Shown in pieces: positions 3,696-41,135 of a stretch of 64,000 bases of DNA. The DNA is taken from contig NZ_LUKD01000001.1 of assembly GCF_001592745.1 (NCBI RefSeq), positions 937,384 through 1,001,383 of the forward strand. Reading direction: 5' to 3'. A program made the translations under genes and the position numbers. Every line of letters begins with the position of its first letter. The first letter of the stretch is position 1. The notes under the pieces are model-generated. The model was not told the origin of the DNA. It saw only the letters and a program-made list of their open reading frames with translations, and ran no database searches. The DNA comes from Bdellovibrio bacteriovorus (GTDB lineage Bacteria > Bdellovibrionota > Bdellovibrionia > Bdellovibrionales > Bdellovibrionaceae).

Positions 3696-4716
3696 CTTCT
3701 GAACCACCTCTTGCGATCAAGATCTTTCCTTCCGCCTCTAAGCGGCGAGCCACGTTGACGATCTCTTGTTGTGCAGACTCGACGTCTGACAAACGAGAAG
3801 GTCCCATGTTCGACAAATCTTCGCGCAACATATCTGCCGCACGTTGAGAAAGATTCTTGAGGATTTTTCCACGAATCTCTTCGCTGGCTGTCTTGAGTGC
3901 CAGAAGAAGTTTTTCGTTCGGCACTTCTTTGAGAAGCGCTTGAATACCACGGTCGTCGATTTTGACAACGTCGTCGAAAACGAACATGAGCTTGCGGATC
4001 TCTTCGGCAAGAAGAGGATCTTTTTCTTCCAAGCGGGACATGATCGCCGTCTCGGTATTCTTGTCCATAACGTTGAGCATTTCCGCCACCGGCTGAACAC
4101 CCCCCAAAGCGGCTTGTTCGACCGTTGCCGTATTGGACAATTGGTTTTTCAAAACTTTGTCGATTTCAGAAATCAATTCCGGATCTACGTGTTCCAAGTT
4201 CGCCATACGCAGTACCACTTCGGCTTGAAGGGCTTCTGGAAGACGTTTTAGAACCTCACCTTTTTTCTCAGGCTCTAGGTGCGCCAAGATCACAGCGACT
4301 GTCTGAGGATGTTCGTTCACTAAGAACGTCGCCAAAGATTTCGCATCGACCATTTCAAGAGACTCCAAAGAGCGCGATCCACCGGATGTGATATTCAAAC
4401 CACCCAGGATACCACGGGCTCTTTCCTCTCCCAAGGCATCGACGATCGTGTCTTTGGCAGAGATGCTTTCAGAGAAGATGTAATCTTCTGTTTCAGAGAT
4501 CATTTCATAGAACTCTTCCAACACACGCTTTGTCACGTGAACAGGAACGACACGCAATTTACTCATCTGATTGATAAGTTTGCGAATGTCAGCATCATCC
4601 ATGCGGCGAAGAAGGACTTTGACAGCGTCTTTACCCAGATAGTTGATAAGGATTGCGGCCTTATCAAAACCTTTGAGCTGTTCATACTCGATATTATCGG
4701 CCTTATGTAATTTCAT
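3682..4716 (-). CDS. fliG: Flagellar motor switch protein FliG
   Basis: The 344-residue rotor protein forms the top of the C ring. It contains the middle-domain EHPQTVAVILAHLEPEK motif and a C-terminal torque helix region with charged residues (KNLSQRAADMLREDLSNMGP) of the kind that contact MotA. Length is normal for the family (about 330-345). It starts within the fliF stop codon (TAATG overlap) and overlaps fliH, indicating translational coupling. FliG binds the C-terminal tail of FliF and reverses rotation with FliM/FliN, neither of which is encoded in this window. Confidence 0.97.
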   Translation of the reverse strand: MKLHKADNIEYEQLKGFDKAAILINYLGKDAVKVLLRRMDDADIRKLINQMSKLRVVPVHVTKRVLEEFYEMISETEDYIFSESISAKDTIVDALGEERARGILGGLNITSGGSRSLESLEMVDAKSLATFLVNEHPQTVAVILAHLEPEKKGEVLKRLPEALQAEVVLRMANLEHVDPELISEIDKVLKNQLSNTATVEQAALGGVQPVAEMLNVMDKNTETAIMSRLEEKDPLLAEEIRKLMFVFDDVVKIDDRGIQALLKEVPNEKLLLALKTASEEIRGKILKNLSQRAADMLREDLSNMGPSRLSDVESAQQEIVNVARRLEAEGKILIARGGSEDAMV

Positions 4717-6365
4717 TAGCCATCCTTCCTAACAAGCCACATACCAAAGGCATTGGCTGCTTTCTCTTCGTCTCGTGACATAGTCGCCATGATACGATCT
4801 TTGAGAAGTTCGCTTTCCGCTTTTTCTGGATCGATTGATTCCTGCAGGACAGGAAGAGCCGCCGACATACCAGGAAGCGTGTTATCCACGGATTGTAATT
4901 CTTCAAGTTCTTCAATTGTACGAGGCAACATTTCCTCCACAGAGTCTTGGAAGCTGTCTGTAATCCACTGCATGAATGGACGAACCACGATGAAGAAGAA
5001 CAGAGCCAAGCTGAATCCCAACAACGCCCATTTAAACAAGGCATGGATCAACTTCTTGCGTTCCAATGTCGTTAAGATCTTCTCTGCTTCAGAGAAGTCT
5101 TCTGGTTGGAACTGCATGCTTTCAATTTTAACACTGTCACCACGAGCTGTATTGAAACCGATCGCGTTTTTAACCAGGTCTTCGTACTTTTTAAGATCTT
5201 CCGCGCTGCGAGGTTGGTAAGTCGTCTCTGTTGTGCCGTCTTCTTTTGTTTTAGTAACGGCAATACCATCAACCACAACCGCGACACTCACGCGCTCTAA
5301 GTTCCCAGCGGCCTCACGAATGTTGCGCACTGTTTTTGGAACTTCATAGTTCGTCGTTTTGATTTCTTTTTTAACGTCTTGCTTGAAGCCTACAGTTCCT
5401 TGATCTTCCGCACCTGGAAGATTCGAACGAGACCCCGGAACGCCGGCTGGATTCACACGCGAACCATCTAAAGATTCTTCCTCAGATTGTTGTGAACGAA
5501 TCGCCGTTTTATCTGGATCAACCAATTCTTCAACCGAAGAGATCACACGGTGATTCAAAGTCGCATCCACTTTCGCAACGACTTTAGCGTGACCTACTAC
5601 TTTAGAAAGGATGTCTTCGATACGATTCTCAAGATCGCCTTCGATTTTTGCCTTTAGATCCAAAAGATCGTTAGAACCTGTCGTCGCGCCATTTTCCTGA
5701 CGAGTCAGAACTTTACCACGTTCATCAAGAACGGTGACTTTATCAGCATCCATACCTTCAACTGCATTCGCAACTAGGTAGCGGATACCACGAACTTGTT
5801 CCGGAGCAAGTTCTTTACCTTGATGAAGTTCAACCACAACCGAAGCTGATGCCTGGCCGCCTTCTTCAAGGAATGTTTTTTTATTTGGCAAAGCCAAGAT
5901 TACTTTGGACTGTTTTACGGCCGTCAAAGTGTTGATCGCTCTCATCAATTCACCTTGAAGGGCTCTTTGGTAATTGATTTTCTGAGCGTAAGAGTTCATC
6001 CCAAAATCTTGCTTATCGAAAATTTCAAGACCGATGGAACCCATTTTTGGAGAGCCGATTTCAGACATCAACGTCATTTGCGTTGAATGAAGAAGCTCTT
6101 TCGGAATAGCAACAGTTTTACCTTCGTCACGAAGTTGGAAGGGGATGTTCTTTTCATTCAGTTTTGCAACGATGGTAGAAACTTGTTCTGTCGGAATATT
6201 GGTGAAAAGCGGTACATAGTCTTTACCGGATGCCATGAAAAGCATCGTCAATAAAGCCACAACAGCTATGACTGTAACCGCAATGACTGAAAGTCTTTTG
6301 GTTGGCCCTAAATTCTTGAAGAACTCTCTAAACTGGACAACCAATCCGCCAAATATTTTGTTCAA
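4716..6365 (-). CDS. fliF: Flagellar MS-ring protein FliF
   Basis: The 549-residue inner-membrane ring protein has transmembrane helices at about residues 26-45 and 444-464, flanking the periplasmic ring-building domains (for example NYQRALQGELMRAINTL and VILALPNKKTF). The short cytoplasmic tail ends in EKAANAFGMWLV, the FliG-binding region. Length agrees with the family (about 530-570). The gene lies 43 bases downstream of fliE and overlaps the fliG start. The MS ring is the assembly base for rotor, rod and export gate. Confidence 0.97.
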   Translation of the reverse strand: MNKIFGGLVVQFREFFKNLGPTKRLSVIAVTVIAVVALLTMLFMASGKDYVPLFTNIPTEQVSTIVAKLNEKNIPFQLRDEGKTVAIPKELLHSTQMTLMSEIGSPKMGSIGLEIFDKQDFGMNSYAQKINYQRALQGELMRAINTLTAVKQSKVILALPNKKTFLEEGGQASASVVVELHQGKELAPEQVRGIRYLVANAVEGMDADKVTVLDERGKVLTRQENGATTGSNDLLDLKAKIEGDLENRIEDILSKVVGHAKVVAKVDATLNHRVISSVEELVDPDKTAIRSQQSEEESLDGSRVNPAGVPGSRSNLPGAEDQGTVGFKQDVKKEIKTTNYEVPKTVRNIREAAGNLERVSVAVVVDGIAVTKTKEDGTTETTYQPRSAEDLKKYEDLVKNAIGFNTARGDSVKIESMQFQPEDFSEAEKILTTLERKKLIHALFKWALLGFSLALFFFIVVRPFMQWITDSFQDSVEEMLPRTIEELEELQSVDNTLPGMSAALPVLQESIDPEKAESELLKDRIMATMSRDEEKAANAFGMWLVRKDG

Positions 6366-6408
6366 GGTAACCCCTCCGACCTAAAACCGAAATCTCAAAT
6401 AAATTAAA

Positions 6409-6744
6409 TCAAACCTGCATTTTCATGACTTCTTGGTACGCATCAATAATCTTGTTACGTACTTGCACCATCACTTTGAGGGCGATGTCTGCTTTTTCAG
6501 CGGCGATCATGACTTCTGCGACGTTGTCTGTTTTTCCAGTGGCCAAGTTTTGCATAGCCTTATCCGAAGACTTTTGCATCTCGTTCACACTGCTGACAGC
6601 GTCCTTCAGGGTGTCGGCGAAGCTCTTGCCAGTATCTGCTGTAGAACTCGTTGATTTAGGACCCTCGATGCTTAAAGACTTGGAGTCACGAATGACACCA
6701 GTATCGAGAAACCTGTTTGCATTTGATACAGTAAAACCCTCCAT
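6409..6744 (-). CDS. fliE: Flagellar hook-basal body protein FliE
   Basis: This 111-residue protein links the MS ring to the rod. The C-terminal region carries the FliE pattern SFADTLKDAVSSVNEMQ, then AEVMIAAEKADIALKVMVQV and NKIIDAYQEVMKMQV at the end. The start at 6744 is supported by an upstream GAGGAGAAGG ribosome site. The 99-base gap from flgC holds an A/T-rich stretch but no clear promoter or terminator, so it is probably co-transcribed with flgBC. Confidence 0.94.
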   Translation of the reverse strand: MEGFTVSNANRFLDTGVIRDSKSLSIEGPKSTSSTADTGKSFADTLKDAVSSVNEMQKSSDKAMQNLATGKTDNVAEVMIAAEKADIALKVMVQVRNKIIDAYQEVMKMQV

Positions 6745-6843
6745 GGCTTCACCTTCTCCTCTTACAAAAATTGTATAAAACTAAACTAAAAAAGTCCTTA
6801 AAATTTGCCCCAGTCTAGGAAAATTCCTCCTGGGCTTTCAGTC

Positions 6844-7287
6844 TTAGCGACCTATCTCCAAAGCACTCAGCGCCATATCTTTTGACGCTTGAAGAGCCGT
6901 CACATTCGCCTCATAGGAGCGAGTGGCCTGTATCATATTGGTCATCTCTTCCATAAGGTTGATATTGGGATAAGCGACGTATCCATCGGCATTTGCATCA
7001 GGATGATCTGGTTCATATTTCAACAATGGGGCTTTGCGATCCGAGATAATATCGGTGACCTGGACCCTTTGGAAATTTCCTTTGGGATCGGTCGAGGTGA
7101 TGATCTCACCAAAATTTTTGGCGTCGGGCATCGACTCGAAAACCACATCCTTACGGCGATACGGACCGCCTTCAGGTGTCTGAGTCGTATTGATATTCGC
7201 GATGTTGCTCGCAATAGTATTCATGCGCATTCTTTGCGCTGCCATACCACTGCTACTTACTCTCATCCCTGTCAGAAAATCAGCCAT
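6844..7287 (-). CDS. flgC: Flagellar proximal rod protein FlgC
   Basis: The 147-residue rod protein has the N-terminal flagellar rod signature SSSGMAAQRMRMNTIASNIA and the C-terminal FlgC motif NMIQATRSYEANVTALQASK. Both heptad-rich ends form the D0 coiled coil of rod/hook proteins. Length is slightly above E. coli FlgC (134). It follows flgB by 35 bases. Exported through the flagellar type III system, so no Sec signal is expected and none is seen. Confidence 0.96.
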   Translation of the reverse strand: MADFLTGMRVSSSGMAAQRMRMNTIASNIANINTTQTPEGGPYRRKDVVFESMPDAKNFGEIITSTDPKGNFQRVQVTDIISDRKAPLLKYEPDHPDANADGYVAYPNINLMEEMTNMIQATRSYEANVTALQASKDMALSALEIGR

Positions 7288-7322
7288 CCTGGCCTCCTCT
7301 CAGAACTCTCAAATCCTAAGTT

Positions 7323-7736
7323 CTATCTGCCGTCGTTCGCCGCGTATTTAAGAGCGGCCATTTTTTTATTGATCAGTTGCAGAGCTGCTTTGTACAGAAC
7401 CGCATTTTCTGATAACGCCGACATTTCTTTTTCTACGTCCACTGTGTTGCCATCGTTATTCACGGCACCTTCAGGGTCTTCATAGATATCAGGTCTAGTT
7501 TTTGAAACAGAAACCCCACCGATGCCGAAGTGCTGTGAATCACTTGTGCTTAGGGAGTTTGCGCCATCTAAATCCAGGGCTCTTTGCAACGCGCCTTCGA
7601 AATCCATTTTCTTAGCGTGATAGCCCGGAGTCTCGGCATTCGCGATATTCGAAGCCGTGACGTTGTGGCGGAGTTGTCTCATCGCCAACGATGTGGCGAG
7701 GGCATTGGTTGTTTTATCAAAAATTCCGTTACTCAT
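7323..7736 (-). CDS. flgB: Flagellar rod protein FlgB
   Basis: The 137-residue proximal rod protein has the N-terminal motif RQLRHNVTASNIANAETPGY, diagnostic for FlgB and related axial proteins, and a helical C-terminus. Its ATG overlaps the stop of the upstream AAA regulator gene (ATGA), so the two are translationally coupled. Length matches the family (about 130-140). Confidence 0.96.
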   Translation of the reverse strand: MSNGIFDKTTNALATSLAMRQLRHNVTASNIANAETPGYHAKKMDFEGALQRALDLDGANSLSTSDSQHFGIGGVSVSKTRPDIYEDPEGAVNNDGNTVDVEKEMSALSENAVLYKAALQLINKKMAALKYAANDGR

Positions 7737-8575
7737 AAAACACCGGCCTCCTTGTATTCGTTTAATTTATTTCTCAATGTTCTAATACTAATCCCTAACA
7801 TCTGAGCGGCTCGAGTACGGTTCTGCGCCGTCAACTCCAAGGTCTGTATGATAAGACGCTTTTCCACCTCAGAAAGGGACATTCCAGGGGCAAAATCCAG
7901 CTCCATATCCTCAACAATGGCCTCAAATTGAATAGATTCGGGGCCAATCAGTGAAGATTTTGCAAGAACGACGGATCTTTCAAGAACGTTTTCAAGTTCA
8001 CGGATGTTTCCCGGCCAGTTCCATGCCGTCAAACGCTCGTAAGCTTCGGCCGTCAAACGCAAGCCAGACTTCCCGTGCATGATTTGCGCGACTTCTAAAA
8101 TAAAAGTCACAATATTCTGAAAATCAGCCAAACGATCTTCAAGGCGAGGAACTTCTAAATGAACCACTGCTAATTTATAGAACAAATCCTGACGGAACTG
8201 TTCTTGCTTAACCAACGAGCGAAGATCACGTCGTGAAGTAGAAATAAAACGTGGGCGAGAAGAGCCCGCTCTTTCCACAAGCCTCATCAATTCATTTTGC
8301 AAAGCAGGATTTGCACAATCCAAATCCTCAATCAAAAGAGTGCCACCATCGACCTTTGAAAAATCAAAACCGCCGGCATTCTTACAGTCCAAAGTGTACA
8401 AACGGGCCGAACGGCTTTTAGCATAAATATAGCGAGCTAAACTGGTTTTTCCCACACCGGCTTCACCAAGAATCAGCAGGCTTGCTTGCGTTGCCGCCAA
8501 CTGCAAACTTAGCTGCTTTACTTCGTGCATTCTTCTGTCTTCGATGTGTATCGCATCAAAATCAAAGTACGACAT
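7733..8575 (-). CDS. Atypical sigma-54-activator-like AAA regulator lacking GAFTGA, with Fis-type HTH
   Basis: The protein is 280 residues from the ATG at 8575 (AGGGAG site 5 bases upstream; the TTG at 8578 is an alternative). It has Walker A GEAGVGKT at about 38-45, sensor II WPGNIRELEN at about 188-197, and a Fis-like helix-turn-helix at about 254-275 (RTRAAQMLGISIRTLRNKL). It resembles NtrC/FlrC-class bacterial enhancer-binding proteins but is degenerate. The whole stretch between Walker A and B is shortened and has no GAFTGA loop. The Walker B acidic pair appears as LLIEDLD instead of the usual DE order. The arginine-finger region reads FRQDLFYKL with Lys in the second position. No receiver domain is present. 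It lies in the flagellar operon between a TPR gene and flgB. It probably binds DNA, and normal sigma-54 activation is doubtful. Confidence 0.82.
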   Translation of the reverse strand: MSYFDFDAIHIEDRRMHEVKQLSLQLAATQASLLILGEAGVGKTSLARYIYAKSRSARLYTLDCKNAGGFDFSKVDGGTLLIEDLDCANPALQNELMRLVERAGSSRPRFISTSRRDLRSLVKQEQFRQDLFYKLAVVHLEVPRLEDRLADFQNIVTFILEVAQIMHGKSGLRLTAEAYERLTAWNWPGNIRELENVLERSVVLAKSSLIGPESIQFEAIVEDMELDFAPGMSLSEVEKRLIIQTLELTAQNRTRAAQMLGISIRTLRNKLNEYKEAGVL

Positions 8576-8584
8576 CAAATCTCC

Positions 8585-11362
8585 CTATTGCCCTTGCTCG
8601 TTCTCAGACATCGCTGGAATTCTTTGGATATATTTCTTGTAACCGTCGCGCCATTCGGAATTCTTCAGCTGCTCTTGCGCTAAGTTTTTCCAAAAGCCAC
8701 TTTTTTCACCTTTAAATTCATTCCAAACTTCGGCGGCTTTTTGCACTTCACCGCGTTTGAAATAAATTTGTCCAAGTTTGTAACGAATCGAAGAAAGAGG
8801 ACGGCTTTCTTCGTACTTTTCCAAAAGCTTTCCGTAAGCTTCGGTGGCTTTGGCTTCGTCGCCTTTATTGAGGTAAAGGTCGCCAATATTTTCTAAGGCT
8901 TTCGCATGCACGACAGTCGAAACCTTGCCAGAATCTTTTTGCAATTGATCCACCACTTCCAAAGCTTGCAATGCTTCGGTAGGGCGGTTTTGTTTCTGCT
9001 GAAGTTCTGCCAATTTCAAATACGGTTCAGCCACTAGTTCCGGTTGGCCTTTCCATGTGCGAAGAAGTTCGCCTAAGTAGCGAATCGCTGATTCATTGTC
9101 ACCGCGCTTTTCAAGAAGACGAACGGCAATGTTCACTCTTTCAATTTGCGCTGCTTCGGAAAGTTTCTCCGGAGTTTTGATGTTTTTTAGGTACTCATAG
9201 CCAAGATTCGATTTTCCTTCTTGAGTGAACACGGCCGCCAAACGAAGGTTCAATTCGTCTTCTGTTGGAATTTCTTCTTTTACTTGAACTTCTTTAGCTT
9301 CCGGAGTTCCACGAATGGCATACACACGGTTTAAAACATCTTTATAATATTTTTCGGCTTCAACCGGAGCTCCGCCCATTTCAAATGCCCGACCCACATT
9401 GTAACGAGTGTCCAGACGCTTAGAGTTTTTCAACCATGTGTCGGCATATTGACTGTGAGTTTTCAAAGCCTCGATGAAGTTCCCACGGTTCACTTCGGAT
9501 TCAAGCTTCGCGTTGATATTCGAAATAATTCTGTTCGTGATCAAAGGAACATCCACAGAAGTCGGATGCTCTTTGTAATACTTAGAAAGAAGATCAATAG
9601 ACTTTTGGAATTCGTTACGTTGCGTGTAACCATCCGCCACCATCACAGTTGCGAACTGTTCCATGTTAGGCAAATCCACCTTTTTCGCCAGTGACATGAT
9701 CTCACCAACGGCATTGTTCACTTCTTTCGGTTTCATACCTTTCATGCGACCGCTCAGTAAACGCAAACGAGAAATCACGGCACTTGGGCTTTCACCATAG
9801 CGGAAATAAGTTTCTAGATAAGCACCCATCACGCGGGATTTATCGGCACCAAAGATATCCAACAATTCTCCCATACGAGTCATCGCGTAAGGGGCATTGG
9901 CATTACTTGGGAATTTTTTAATAAATTCAAGGTAAGTATCCAAGCTTTGATTGTACTTATTCATCCAGAACAAAGATTCAGCCTGGTTGTAGTATGCATT
10001 CGGATAAGAGTTTTGACCTTCTGGGTATTTCTTAAGCGCACGCTGATATTCTTCAACAGCTTTAGAGTAATTTTTACCGCGCACCCACACATCACCACGA
10101 CGGAAAGCGGCTTCCACTTTCAGATCCCGATTCGTAGAGTTTTTCTCTATATCATCAAACTGAGCGACGGCTTCATTGTAGCGATTGAGCTTCATATAAG
10201 CCAAGGCAGTGCCCAAGCGAGCTAAGTCTTTCGACAATGCATTTTTATCCGGAAAGTTTTTATTACCAATATGCTCATTGAAAAGACGAAGCGCTCCAAG
10301 GAAGTCGCCTCTTTCCAAAGCCAAATAGCCAATTTTCAAAGACGTTCTTTCGGCCAACGGAGAACGCGGATACTTTTCAATCGCTTCCTTATAACGTTGG
10401 ACAGCTTCATCGTAATTTTGACTGTTGCCAGAGTCCTGCCATAAAGCCAGGTGTACATCGGCCGTCATATAATCAATGATTTCGTTGTACTCAGATTTTG
10501 GATATTTATCTTTAAACCAATTCTGAGTTTTCAAATAAACCGCATATCTTTGCTTTTCAAAAAGAGTCAGAAGCAAACGCGCCTGTTTATTTTCGTCCGT
10601 TGATTTTGCGGAAATTTCGTAAATCGTCGGAGTGACTTTCATCCTCTCCCAGTAACTCACCGGAGTTTCCAACATCGGAAACGGGATGTAGTAATTGTCC
10701 TTAGCGCGGATCAAAGCTTCTTCTTTGATCTCGTAGTCTTTGATAGAAAAGCGCTCATAATTAGGATCGCCGCCATCAAAGATTCCTGACTTCACGGGAT
10801 CTGAATTCATCGCCACTGCGGTACCTTGATTTGCGATATTCAAGACATCTGCCGTAGCGGGTTTTCTTTTCTTATCAGTTTTAGCTTTTGCCACCGATTT
10901 TGCAGGCTTAGCACTCTCTTCTGCGGGTGCTGTTTCGGATTTTTTGGCAACGGCTTTGATTTCTTTTTTAGGCTTGCTGTTTGGATTTACATAGAAATCC
11001 ATAATCAGTCTAGAGGGTTGGTCTGTTAGGTAATCAAAAGTGTCGATGTCATCGCCAGACAATGTGAAAGAGATCACGTGTTTACCATCTGGACCTTTAC
11101 GATCAACAGCAACACCCGTTACAAAATCACTTTTAAATGAAGAAAGAGCTTTGATGGTCGCATCATCCATCGCTGGCACCGTCATTTCGACAATAGTTTG
11201 GTTCTTTACTTCCAAACGTTTCACGTCGTAATCCCAGTTTTGCTGACCTGAGAGTTCCAAATGAACAGTATCGCCCTGATAATTAATCAAGCCACTGACT
11301 GTTTGAGCCTGTGCCGAAGCTAGACTTAAGATGAGGCATCCTGCCGCAACGAAAAATCGCAA
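8585..11362 (-). CDS. Exported TPR-repeat protein, first gene of the flagellar operon
   Basis: The protein is about 925 residues. I place the start at the TTG at 11362, which has AAGGAG 8 bases upstream and yields an immediate signal peptide (MRFFVAAGCLILSLASAQAQ). Longer frames from 11464 put a polar stretch before it. After the signal comes a beta-rich segment of about 100 residues ending in DQPSRLIMDFYV, resembling AMIN-type domains that bind the cell wall. A Lys/Ala/Ser linker follows, then more than ten TPR-like units (for example YDEAVQRYKEAIEKYPRSPL and YSKAVEEYQRALKKYPEGQ). It is probably a periplasmic scaffold. Its place directly behind the sigma-54 promoter and ahead of the rod and ring genes suggests a structural or assembly role in the flagellar motor. 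That role is inference. Confidence 0.85.
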   Translation of the reverse strand: MRFFVAAGCLILSLASAQAQTVSGLINYQGDTVHLELSGQQNWDYDVKRLEVKNQTIVEMTVPAMDDATIKALSSFKSDFVTGVAVDRKGPDGKHVISFTLSGDDIDTFDYLTDQPSRLIMDFYVNPNSKPKKEIKAVAKKSETAPAEESAKPAKSVAKAKTDKKRKPATADVLNIANQGTAVAMNSDPVKSGIFDGGDPNYERFSIKDYEIKEEALIRAKDNYYIPFPMLETPVSYWERMKVTPTIYEISAKSTDENKQARLLLTLFEKQRYAVYLKTQNWFKDKYPKSEYNEIIDYMTADVHLALWQDSGNSQNYDEAVQRYKEAIEKYPRSPLAERTSLKIGYLALERGDFLGALRLFNEHIGNKNFPDKNALSKDLARLGTALAYMKLNRYNEAVAQFDDIEKNSTNRDLKVEAAFRRGDVWVRGKNYSKAVEEYQRALKKYPEGQNSYPNAYYNQAESLFWMNKYNQSLDTYLEFIKKFPSNANAPYAMTRMGELLDIFGADKSRVMGAYLETYFRYGESPSAVISRLRLLSGRMKGMKPKEVNNAVGEIMSLAKKVDLPNMEQFATVMVADGYTQRNEFQKSIDLLSKYYKEHPTSVDVPLITNRIISNINAKLESEVNRGNFIEALKTHSQYADTWLKNSKRLDTRYNVGRAFEMGGAPVEAEKYYKDVLNRVYAIRGTPEAKEVQVKEEIPTEDELNLRLAAVFTQEGKSNLGYEYLKNIKTPEKLSEAAQIERVNIAVRLLEKRGDNESAIRYLGELLRTWKGQPELVAEPYLKLAELQQKQNRPTEALQALEVVDQLQKDSGKVSTVVHAKALENIGDLYLNKGDEAKATEAYGKLLEKYEESRPLSSIRYKLGQIYFKRGEVQKAAEVWNEFKGEKSGFWKNLAQEQLKNSEWRDGYKKYIQRIPAMSENEQGQ

Positions 11363-11407
11363 AGTGTTCACTCCTTGAACCCTACCTTTTCCCTTCCTTG
11401 TGCTGTT

Positions 11408-11422
11408 GCACATACGGTGCCA
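11408..11422 (-). promoter_or_regulatory. Sigma-54 (-24/-12) promoter of the flagellar operon
   Basis: On the minus strand the bases read TGGCACCGTATGTGC. Against the consensus TGGCACG-N4-TTGC, this has the invariant GG and GC with exact spacing and only two substitutions. Transcription would start near 11396, leaving a leader of about 34 bases before the TTG start at 11362, which carries an AAGGAG ribosome site. Confidence 0.75.
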
Positions 11423-11482
11423 GCATTTCTTTGGTCTATTGGCAAATATGTTCCAGATGGGCAAAAAGTTTCATAGATTTTC

Positions 11483-11496
11483 TGTCAGGCCTGACA
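11483..11496. promoter_or_regulatory. Perfect 14-bp palindrome, candidate enhancer site for the sigma-54 promoter
   Basis: TGTCAGGCCTGACA is its own reverse complement. It lies about 85-100 bases upstream of the predicted flagellar transcription start, the usual place for a binding site of a bacterial enhancer-binding protein. Which protein binds is unknown. Confidence 0.55.
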
Positions 11497-11531
11497 AATG
11501 GATGACAGTGGACTTAGGTCCTGTTTGCCAA

Positions 11532-11545
11532 CGTCAGGACTGAAT
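11532..11545. promoter_or_regulatory. Second, degenerate copy of the upstream palindrome
   Basis: CGTCAGGACTGAAT shares about 10-11 of 14 positions with the perfect palindrome at 11483-11496. It lies 49 bases from it centre to centre. Together they look like a tandem activator site. This copy also lies just upstream of the divergent lipoprotein gene at 11578. Confidence 0.4.
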
Positions 11546-14412: not shown

Positions 14413-14497
14413 GCTCCAGTGTTAAGAATCTAAGCTTTCAATGTGTGAAAAAAATTGAATCGTCGTTAGCATGAGGGTGAAAACAAGGAGGGCCATC

Positions 14498-14887
14498 ATG
14501 CCTAGAGGTTCAAAAGAAAAATACACGAGCAAACAAAAACGCCAAGCAGAACACATCGAAGAGAGCGCGAAAAAACGCGGCTATTCAGCAAAGCGCGCCG
14601 CCCAAATCGGCTGGGCCACAGTGAATAAAGAAACTGGCGGCGCAGGTAAAAAAGTTTCTAACACCGAGCCTTCGAAACTCGGCGGTAAAAGAGGCGGAAA
14701 AGCCGCGGCGAAATCCAAGTCATCTTCTTCCACTAAATCGGCTTCTTCAAAATCAGCCTCATCCAGATCATCTTCAAAATCTTCATCAAAATCGACACAA
14801 TCACATGCATCACGCGTGCGTGCTGCGAAGAAGGGCTGGCAAACAAGACGCCACAGCGGCGGCGCTACTCACCACGCTTCCCACTAA
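14498..14887 (+). CDS. Small basic protein: conserved stress-type N-terminal domain plus histone-H1-like tail
   Basis: The protein is 129 residues from the ATG at 14498, which has AAGGAGG 6 bases upstream. An upstream in-frame ATG at 14471 lacks a ribosome site. The first 50 residues (MPRGSKEKYTSKQKRQAEHI, then WATVNKETGG) match a widespread small family often labelled plasmid stabilisation protein, with no proven function. The rest is almost only Lys, Ser, Ala, Thr and Arg, like histone H1 or Hc1-type nucleoid proteins, and ends in RVRAAKKGWQTRRHS. It could bind nucleic acid. A GGCCCTT hairpin follows. Confidence 0.8.
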   Translation: MPRGSKEKYTSKQKRQAEHIEESAKKRGYSAKRAAQIGWATVNKETGGAGKKVSNTEPSKLGGKRGGKAAAKSKSSSSTKSASSKSASSRSSSKSSSKSTQSHASRVRAAKKGWQTRRHSGGATHHASH

Positions 14888-39683: not shown

Positions 39684-39731
39684 TTAGAAAGTACTGAATC
39701 AGTACAAGAACCCACCATGGAAGGAAGGTTC

Positions 39732-41135
39732 ATGCGAAGCCAAAGAGTCCTAATATTAGATGACGAGTCCTCCTTAAGAACCGCACTTTTTAGAGTGCTT
39801 GATCGCAAAGGCCTGAACGTCATCACTGCCAACAAAATCGAAGAAGCCAAAGTTTTGTGCCAGGGTGATACTCCCATCGATTTAGCTATTGTTGATTTGA
39901 ATCTTCCCGATGGCGACGGCATTGAATTCATGACTCATCTTAAATCTCTAAGTCCGGCGACCGAAGTCATCATTCTGACGGGTCATGCGACCATCGAATC
40001 CGCTATTCGCGCAACACAAAAAGGGGCCTTCCACTTCGTCACGAAGCCTTTCAATCTTGAAGAACTGATGAGCTTGATTGAAAAAGCTCTGACTCACAAA
40101 AAACTTCAGCAAGAAAATCAGCAGCTTCGTTCTGAATTGAACAAGAAATATAAATTCGATCAAATCGTCGGAAACTCTGATCAAATTCAAAACGTATTGC
40201 GCTTGATTGAAAGAGTGGCTGATTCCGATTCGACAGTTCTTGTGACTGGTGAATCAGGAACCGGTAAAGAACTTATCGCACGCGCGATTCACTATAACTC
40301 TCCACGCGCGCAAGGTCCTTTCATTCCTATCAACTGTGGCGCCATTCCTGCGGAACTTTTGGAAAGTGAACTTTTCGGACACATCAAAGGGGCTTTCACT
40401 GGCGCAATTGCCAATCGCGTAGGCCGTTTTGAAATGGCCGATGGCGGAACGATCTTCCTAGACGAAATCGGAGATCTAGAGCCGTCTTTGCAAGTGAAAC
40501 TTCTTCGTGCTTTGCAGGAACGCAGCTTTGAACCTGTAGGCTCTACTAAAACCGTGACCGTGAATGTGCGCGTGATCGCAGCGACAAATATCAATTTGGA
40601 AGAGGCTGTAGATAACGGTCGATTCCGTGAAGATCTTTTCTATCGCTTGAATGTCATTCCGTTGCCAGTTCCGGCGTTGCGTGAACGTAAAACAGATATC
40701 CCTTTGTTATTGAACCATTTCATGGAAATTTTCAATAAGAGCAAAGGCCGTGGTCTTTCAGGTATTACTCCAGACGCTTTAGATTGCCTCGTGAACTACG
40801 CTTGGCCCGGAAATATCCGTGAACTTGAAAATCTTGTTGAGCGCATGACCATTCTTAAAGGCCAAGGACAGATTGATATTTCTGACCTTCCATTGAAGTA
40901 CAAGTCCGGCAAAACTGCTTCTTCCGAAGTCGGTGGTTTGGAAATTCCAGATGCAGGCATGGACTTTAACTCGGCTGTCGATGCCTATGAAAACGCGTTG
41001 ATCTTAAAAGCGCTTGAAAAAACCGGTTGGAACCGCAACCAAGCGGCGGCTCTTTTAAGACTGAACCGCACAACTTTGGTGGAGAAGATCAAAAAGAAAG
41101 GTCTTATCCCGCCGAACGAAATCACTCCCACATAA
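39732..41135 (+). CDS. NtrC-family sigma-54-dependent response regulator
   Basis: The protein is 467 residues from the ATG at 39732, with AAGGAAGG 4 bases upstream (the ATG at 39717 is less likely). It has an N-terminal receiver with acceptor Asp in AIVDLNLPDGDG and Lys in FVTKPF. The AAA domain has Walker A GESGTGKE, intact GAFTGA, Walker B FLDEIGDLE, and FREDLFYRLNV. A C-terminal Fis-type helix-turn-helix follows (NRNQAAALLRLNRTTLVEKI). Complete and normal, so it can activate sigma-54 promoters. No cognate kinase is adjacent on the same transcript, though kinases lie 2-6 kb upstream. Confidence 0.96.
   Translation: MRSQRVLILDDESSLRTALFRVLDRKGLNVITANKIEEAKVLCQGDTPIDLAIVDLNLPDGDGIEFMTHLKSLSPATEVIILTGHATIESAIRATQKGAFHFVTKPFNLEELMSLIEKALTHKKLQQENQQLRSELNKKYKFDQIVGNSDQIQNVLRLIERVADSDSTVLVTGESGTGKELIARAIHYNSPRAQGPFIPINCGAIPAELLESELFGHIKGAFTGAIANRVGRFEMADGGTIFLDEIGDLEPSLQVKLLRALQERSFEPVGSTKTVTVNVRVIAATNINLEEAVDNGRFREDLFYRLNVIPLPVPALRERKTDIPLLLNHFMEIFNKSKGRGLSGITPDALDCLVNYAWPGNIRELENLVERMTILKGQGQIDISDLPLKYKSGKTASSEVGGLEIPDAGMDFNSAVDAYENALILKALEKTGWNRNQAAALLRLNRTTLVEKIKKKGLIPPNEITPT

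Follow-up and report, generated by a model that had tools for sequence, protein, structure and literature searches.

A flgB-linked FlbD-type regulator lacking its sigma-54-contacting loop as a probable remnant of a flagellar activator in the Bdellovibrio family

Introduction

The closest described counterparts of the regulator analyzed in this study, a 280-aa protein encoded within a flagellar operon of Bdellovibrio bacteriovorus, are FlbD of Caulobacter and its Desulfovibrio homologue DVU1063. These share with it the flagellar context and the group of Fis-type HTH domains, and FlbD is also its best NCBIfam match (NF050807), with a score far under the cut-off of that family. FlbD acts on an early flagellar operon, and its homologues in Desulfobacterota are linked to flgB, as is the 280-aa gene. 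In detail, FlbD acts on the early fliF operon as a repressor, and on later genes as an activator (PMC3930126). It carries a receiver domain and the GAFTGA motif and activates sigma-54, whereas the 280-aa protein possesses neither the receiver domain nor GAFTGA.

Relatives of such activators that are devoid of the loop have been described before: (i) TyrR, DhaR, HupR and VpsR (PMC3162934), and (ii) Caulobacter NtrC, Rhodobacter capsulatus NtrC and NtrX (PMC10274813). In all of them, as in the 280-aa protein, the sigma-54-contacting loop is gone and the DNA-binding domain is kept. The change in the NtrC cases described (8 residues in Caulobacter NtrC) and the small deletions in DhaR, TyrR and VpsR concern L1, while here both L1 and L2 are gone. 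The 280-aa protein further differs from the known GAFTGA-less regulators in having no sensory domain and in having relatives that erode to the HTH or to nothing.

Two other groups of proteins are of relevance. FleQ and FlrA, flagellar master regulators of which FleQ acts at sigma-54 and other promoters, share the AAA fold with the 280-aa protein, but FleQ retains its loop, and the FleQ-type protein of the window (the whole analyzed stretch of 64,000 nt) is the product of a separate gene. Fis is of the small HTH dimer type and matches HTH_8, and the 145-aa remnants described below approach it in make-up; it is, however, not orthologous to the 280-aa protein, which retains the AAA core. Morett and Bork reportedly proposed in 1998 that Fis arose from an NtrC-type HTH. 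As regards Bdellovibrio itself, the accessible parts of the papers on its sigma factors name an RpoN-like gene (bd0843) and do not describe the 280-aa regulator, and a literature search combining Bdellovibrio with GAFTGA returned nothing on it.

Results and Discussion

Location and architecture of the gene

The flagellar operon begins with a gene for a TPR-repeat protein, followed by the 280-aa gene and then by flgB (Table 1). The 280-aa gene starts with ATG at position 8575, 9 nt past the stop codon of the TPR gene, and its own stop codon, at 7733, overlaps the flgB start (ATGA). The order flgB-flgC-fliE-fliF is the same in every family locus with an orthologue of this gene. Pfam searches with the 280-aa protein identified Sigma54_activat (in pieces), AAA_lid_14 and HTH_8, and a receiver domain (REC) is missing both from the Pfam results and from the sequence. 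In the AlphaFold2 model, which is of high confidence (pLDDT 90.8, pTM 0.73), a normal AAA domain is predicted together with the lid and the HTH. Comparison of this model with the AAA domain of FlrC gave 210 aligned residues of 245 (Z 23.4, 2.1 A), the 35 unaligned ones equalling the sum of the 25 and 10 residues that are deleted in the 280-aa protein, and the structures of NtrC1, FleQ, NtrX and VpsR were matched nearly as well. Elsewhere in the window (14471-14887, plus strand) there is a gene for a short protein rich in Lys, Ser and Ala, which has KGG-like repeats at its N-terminus and ends in a tail of low complexity.

Table 1. Positions of the genes, protein motifs and regulatory elements within the window.
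Feature	Position	Strand	Remarks
flgB, flgC, fliE, fliF	4716..7736	-	immediately 3' of the 280-aa gene
GAFTGA-less NtrC/FlbD-type gene	7733..8575	-	280 aa; AAA core, lid, Fis-type HTH
Recognition stretch GISIRTLRNKLNEY	7754-7795	-	almost no variation between Desulfobacterota and the 145-aa remnants
HTH_8 DNA-binding domain	7754..7876	-	Pfam, alignments
Sensor II GNIREL	7994..8011	-	retained across the genus
Arginine-finger region FRQDLFYKL	8171..8197	-	second Arg replaced by Lys
Sensor I region STSRRD	8225..8242	-	catalytic Asn replaced by Arg
Junction of the 10-residue deletion of L2 (pre-sensor I)	8263..8264	-	between aa 104 and 105; spacing 31 vs 41
Walker B GGTLLIED	8324..8347	-	aa 77-84; E-D in place of D-E
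Junction of the 25-residue deletion (helix 3, L1/GAFTGA)	8374..8375	-	between aa 67 and 68; A-B spacing 40 vs 65
Walker A GEAGVGKT	8444..8467	-	aa 37-44; GKE in intact relatives
TPR-repeat protein, first gene of the operon	8585..11371	-	GTG start, about 928 aa
Sigma-54 -24/-12 promoter TGGCACCGTATGTGCA	11407..11422	-	aligned in 20/20 genus sequences
Conserved block TTTTTGCCCA-N..-ATTTGCCAA, flanked by enhancer and promoter	11439..11467	-	candidate operator of the 280-aa protein
Perfect palindrome TTTGTCAGGCCTGACA	11483..11498	.	sole perfect copy in the genome
FleQ/FlrA-type box GTCA-N6-TGTC	11493..11506	-	84 bp upstream of the -24 element
REC-AAA-HTH activator (GAFTGA present; recognition helix RTTLVEK, of FleQ type)	39717..41135	+	candidate activator of the operon

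Loss of the pore loops and of catalytic residues

The initial annotation of this locus had proposed that the protein lost the GAFTGA loop while keeping Walker A, sensor II and the Fis-type DNA-binding domain, that the Walker B acids are swapped (ED instead of DE) and that one arginine finger is Lys. All of these points were borne out by alignments and Pfam. The distance between Walker A and Walker B is 40 residues in 12/12 tabulated genus members, compared with 65 in 15/15 intact proteins, the swapped acids and the Lys occur in all 12 of these members as well, and no displaced GAFTGA-like loop was found when it was looked for in the alignment and the sequence of the 280-aa protein. The 25-residue deletion responsible removes helix 3 and L1/GAFTGA.

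Several further changes had been missed in the initial annotation. A second deletion, of 10 residues, corresponds to the L2 (pre-sensor I) loop and shortens the distance between Walker B and sensor I to 31 residues in the genus (41 in intact proteins). The glutamate switch, sensor I and Walker A (GKE to GKT) are also affected: among the 12 genus members, the Walker A Lys is retained and the following Glu is replaced by Thr (Ser in one), the glutamate-switch Asn by Asp or Glu, the sensor I Asn by Arg and the second arginine finger by Lys, while the first arginine finger and sensor II are unchanged. Of the bEBP hallmarks, the AAA+ core with Walker A, the lid and sensor II are present, L1 and L2 are missing, and the catalytic set (Walker B D-E, the Asn switch, the sensor I Asn and the two arginine fingers) is no longer complete. 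Outside the genus but within the family, Walker B is often E-N, the sensor II Arg is often gone, and the Walker A Lys is changed to Arg in five loci (L117, L126, L128, L131 and L133).

All orthologues fetched from the genus (23 distinct genomes, with identities of 71-100%) share the loop-less state, as does the rest of the family, and therefore this state is not a product of chance or of a sequencing error. In bEBPs, the loops and the catalytic residues are needed for the remodelling of sigma-54 polymerase, and from this established mechanism we infer that the 280-aa protein would be unable to perform it.

Orthologues in a single syntenic slot

The slot TPR-EBP-flgB-flgC-fliE-fliF is common to the intact (320-aa) and the loop-less forms of the protein, and its occupants can be arranged as follows: (i) in Desulfobacterota and other phyla, a REC-AAA-HTH protein of ~460 aa, equipped with the loop, is often encoded just before flgB; (ii) in the other families of the order, the protein is an AAA-HTH of ~320 aa, and in 30/30 loci examined its gene adjoins flgB and keeps the loop (G[AS]FTGA in 29 of them and GAFTNA in one); (iii) in the Bdellovibrio family, the GAFTGA loop was found in no locus examined; (iv) in orthologues from the genus g17 (~250 aa), the AAA core is mostly gone; (v) four g17 genomes (L132 and L297-L299) contain ORFs of ~143-155 aa that comprise the lid and HTH only; and (vi) eight flagellated genomes (L291-L296, L300 and L301) have no such gene, and the TPR gene leads straight into flgB with a gap of -10 to +22 nt. 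The exact loss of the gene in these eight flagellated relatives speaks against an essential assembly checkpoint, a role that had been considered in the initial annotation besides those of a DNA-binding co-regulator and an antagonist.

In the protein tree, the family proteins group in a single clade with full support, and the 13 other activators of the genome fall outside it. A tree of neighbouring proteins places four changes of gene presence in the family, two of which are forced by well supported branches. On these comparisons, the 280-aa gene is what remains of the flagellar sigma-54 activator of FlbD type whose gene precedes flgB both in this order and in Desulfobacterota.

Selection on the DNA-binding domain

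The HTH is the most constrained part of the protein in every group, the 145-aa remnants included, with dS near saturation in many pairs. Within the genus, the median dN/dS amounts to 0.09 for the part preceding the HTH and to 0.025 for the HTH itself, and here also dS is near saturation for many pairs. Such low values, lowest in the HTH, argue that the gene is not a pseudogene in Bdellovibrio and suggest that its retained function is DNA binding. Alignment, tree and dN/dS are all in agreement with an origin from a sigma-54 activator in which the sigma-54-contacting loop disappeared and the HTH stayed under strong purifying selection. The 13 other activators of the genome all lack the stretch ISIRTLRNKLNEY, and because the recognition stretch is unlike theirs, the protein is presumably no mere copy of the specificity of another activator.

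Promoter, enhancer and candidate operator

The gene had also been placed inside an operon with a sigma-54 promoter, assigned to positions 11483-11545. The operon does possess a conserved -24/-12 element, located elsewhere (Table 1); the GG and GC of this element are invariant across 20 genus sequences, and an equivalent site occurs family-wide and beyond. The interval 11483-11545 was rejected as the promoter, as no -24/-12 is found there; it lies upstream of the conserved element and holds a FleQ-type box and a palindrome. The -24/-12 elements are conserved at the fliF and flgF operons, and rpoN was found in 52 of 53 good family genomes, which suggests that sigma-54 control persists although the 280-aa protein would not contact sigma-54. 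Upstream of flgF (G000:C1:1951084; L255, L262), the -24/-12 lies ~40 nt before the start in most family genomes, and GTCTAG/CTAGAC-like elements differing among genera are also present. A genome scan for sigma-54 sites with TGGCAY-N6-TGCW gave 38 matches versus 28 in a reversed control and is, alone, not discriminating.

The box of the family, GTCA-N6-TG[TG]C, is typically located at -85 from the -24 element, or else at -96 or -108. These positions are about one helical turn apart, as expected of a looping enhancer. The box is similar to the motifs of a Desulfovibrio FlrA-like regulator and of Vibrio FlrA, GTCA-N6-TGAC/TGGC (PMC4641369), and of FleQ, GTCAAT-NN-ATTGAC (PMC10723142). It was detected in 20/20 genus promoters and in 19/26 other gene-bearing ones (about 0.18 and 0.14 were expected), as well as in 4/8 gene-less promoters; it was missed in 7/26 and 4/8, respectively, and some of the sequences are incomplete.

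A candidate for binding this box is the REC-AAA-HTH activator encoded in the same window. The best PDB match of its C-terminal domain with the HTH is FleQ (E 0.0009), and among the orthologues fetched TTLVEK is present in 30/30 and the exact GAFTGA in 28/30. All 66 family genomes contain a match at E 1e-100 or better, and orthologues with 59-100% identity (four of them partial) occur in nearly all of them, the exceptions numbering about three (G011, G026 and G058, in which the matches are weaker and at the level of paralogues). Judging from the resemblance of its HTH, this protein is the most likely one to fire the operon via the FleQ-type box. A GAFTGA-bearing FleQ-type activator together with a FleQ-type box would explain how the sigma-54 promoter still fires.

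Other activators of the genome were also inspected. One of them (G000:C1:573082-573579, L154; REC-AAA-HTH, 458 aa) has GAMPGV for GAFTGA and an altered Walker B (IAEI), and it may also be without sigma-54 contact. Another (G000:C1:599362-600249, L143/L151), with a 397-aa frame, GSFTGA and the HTH ITIKTLYNKLHEYG, is located away from flagellar genes here, occurs order-wide and shows ~49% identity to the intact flgB-linked protein; it is possibly an activator of other sigma-54 flagellar genes. The orthologues of a second REC-AAA-HTH activator (G000:C6:195929-197299) contain, in five genus members (G004, G019, G020, G023 and G024), one in-frame TAA located at or close to one of the two ends of the frame that was matched, and this codon is missing in others.

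Between the enhancer and the promoter lies a conserved block, a candidate operator of the 280-aa protein. It occupies the position from which a protein that bends DNA would influence the loop. The core of the block, TTT[TGC]CC[TC] (TTTKCCY), was found in 20/20 genus promoters, in 21/26 other gene-bearing ones, and in 0/8 gene-less and 0/8 outgroup promoters. For gene-bearing versus gene-less promoters the Fisher p is 7e-5, uncorrected for relatedness or for discovery by eye; as gene loss amounts to only 2-4 independent events on the tree, the co-occurrence falls short of formal significance and is to be treated as a lead rather than as proof. A search of flgF promoters for independent confirmation found the block in the genus and no clear copy in other genera. 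The FlbD motif GGCA-N4/5-TGCC had no match in the window, and the block itself contains TGCC half-sites only, without the complete motif GGCA-N4-TGCC. The palindrome listed in Table 1 was also considered as the operator of the 280-aa protein, but it is not favoured because similar palindromes remain in two gene-less genomes (L308 and L309) and the genome holds only a single perfect copy.

Proposed role and alternative explanations

Taken together, these observations make it probable that the 280-aa protein is a remnant without sigma-54 activation, that a FleQ-type protein fires the operon, and that the remnant acts as a DNA-bound modulator independent of ATP hydrolysis. With both pore loops and most of the catalytic residues lost in the Bdellovibrio family, sigma-54 remodelling would no longer occur, and the promoter would be fired by the FleQ-type activator through the GTCA-N6-TGNC box, 84-108 bp upstream. 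The 280-aa protein would still bind DNA by its unchanged HTH, without ATP hydrolysis, near the promoter of its own operon. The most promising site for this is the conserved TTTTKCCY block, which separates the enhancer from the promoter; by bending or occupying the looping DNA there, the protein may tune the transcription of the early flagellar operon. As to the sign of this regulation, mild autorepression is slightly preferred, since FlbD does so at fliF; the dual role of FlbD implies that its DNA-binding half alone could preserve repression. Tentatively, one may go further and propose that the former activator now serves, at a promoter that it once could fire, as an architectural factor of the Fis kind dedicated to this promoter, setting, between the FleQ-bound enhancer and the -24/-12, the ease of looping, with the second activator as the ATPase.

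Known loop-less relatives act at sigma-70 promoters, and thus, like VpsR, R. capsulatus NtrC and Caulobacter NtrC, the protein might instead regulate promoters of the sigma-70 or sigma-28 type, with ATP binding rather than hydrolysis as the switch and with its main targets elsewhere in the genome. Walker A and the sensor II Arg are present in all tabulated genus members, and the now canonical GKT of Walker A fits nucleotide binding. Outside the genus, however, the HTH persists where the sensor II Arg has been lost and where, in several lines, the Walker A Lys has been lost as well, which argues that nucleotide binding is not generally needed; moreover, no target of this kind was found, and we consider this explanation unlikely. 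An AAA fold that is intact in the model and a first arginine finger retained in the genus would also suit an inhibitory or tethering subunit that joins a GAFTGA-bearing activator in mixed rings or dimers. A ring partner would need the core, though, and relatives in which it is largely or wholly deleted retain the HTH, so that such a role appears very improbable.

The graded erosion to lid and HTH, the precise loss in eight flagellated genomes and the stop/start overlap with flgB might be taken as signs that the gene is a relic in decay, has little regulatory function and is retained chiefly for the translational coupling of its 3' end to flgB. This seems quite improbable in view of the dN/dS in the genus of ~0.09 before the HTH and 0.025 in it, given that coupling alone would conserve neither a 41-residue HTH nor the amino acids in the 145-aa remnants, and that in gene-less genomes the TPR gene couples directly to flgB. 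It is hardly credible that the protein still activates sigma-54 polymerase through an unrecognised loop: both pore loops, Walker B, sensor I and the glutamate switch are altered or gone and no displaced GAFTGA-like sequence is present, even though the loop-less NtrC of Caulobacter can influence sigma-54 flagellar genes once its DNA binding is lost (PMC12421884).

Conclusions

What is new in the probable remnant described here, compared with the known loop-less regulators, is that it represents a flagellar, FlbD-type case in which both pore loops are lost, with a graded series leading to gene loss in one slot and with the sigma-54 promoter intact. Were the tentative architectural role true, one syntenic slot in the family would hold the intermediates between an NtrC-type activator and a Fis-type small DNA-binding protein. 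The locus illustrates how a flagellar hierarchy may be rewired with promoter and operon fixed: the ATPase function would have been dropped and DNA binding kept, and another activator apparently carries the promoter. With each stage represented in living species, from the full regulator through loss of the receiver, of the pore loops and of the core to loss of the gene, it can be tested directly which functions an activator can do without. The locus also adds one more putative regulator for a predator in which the transcription of flagellar genes is still poorly understood.
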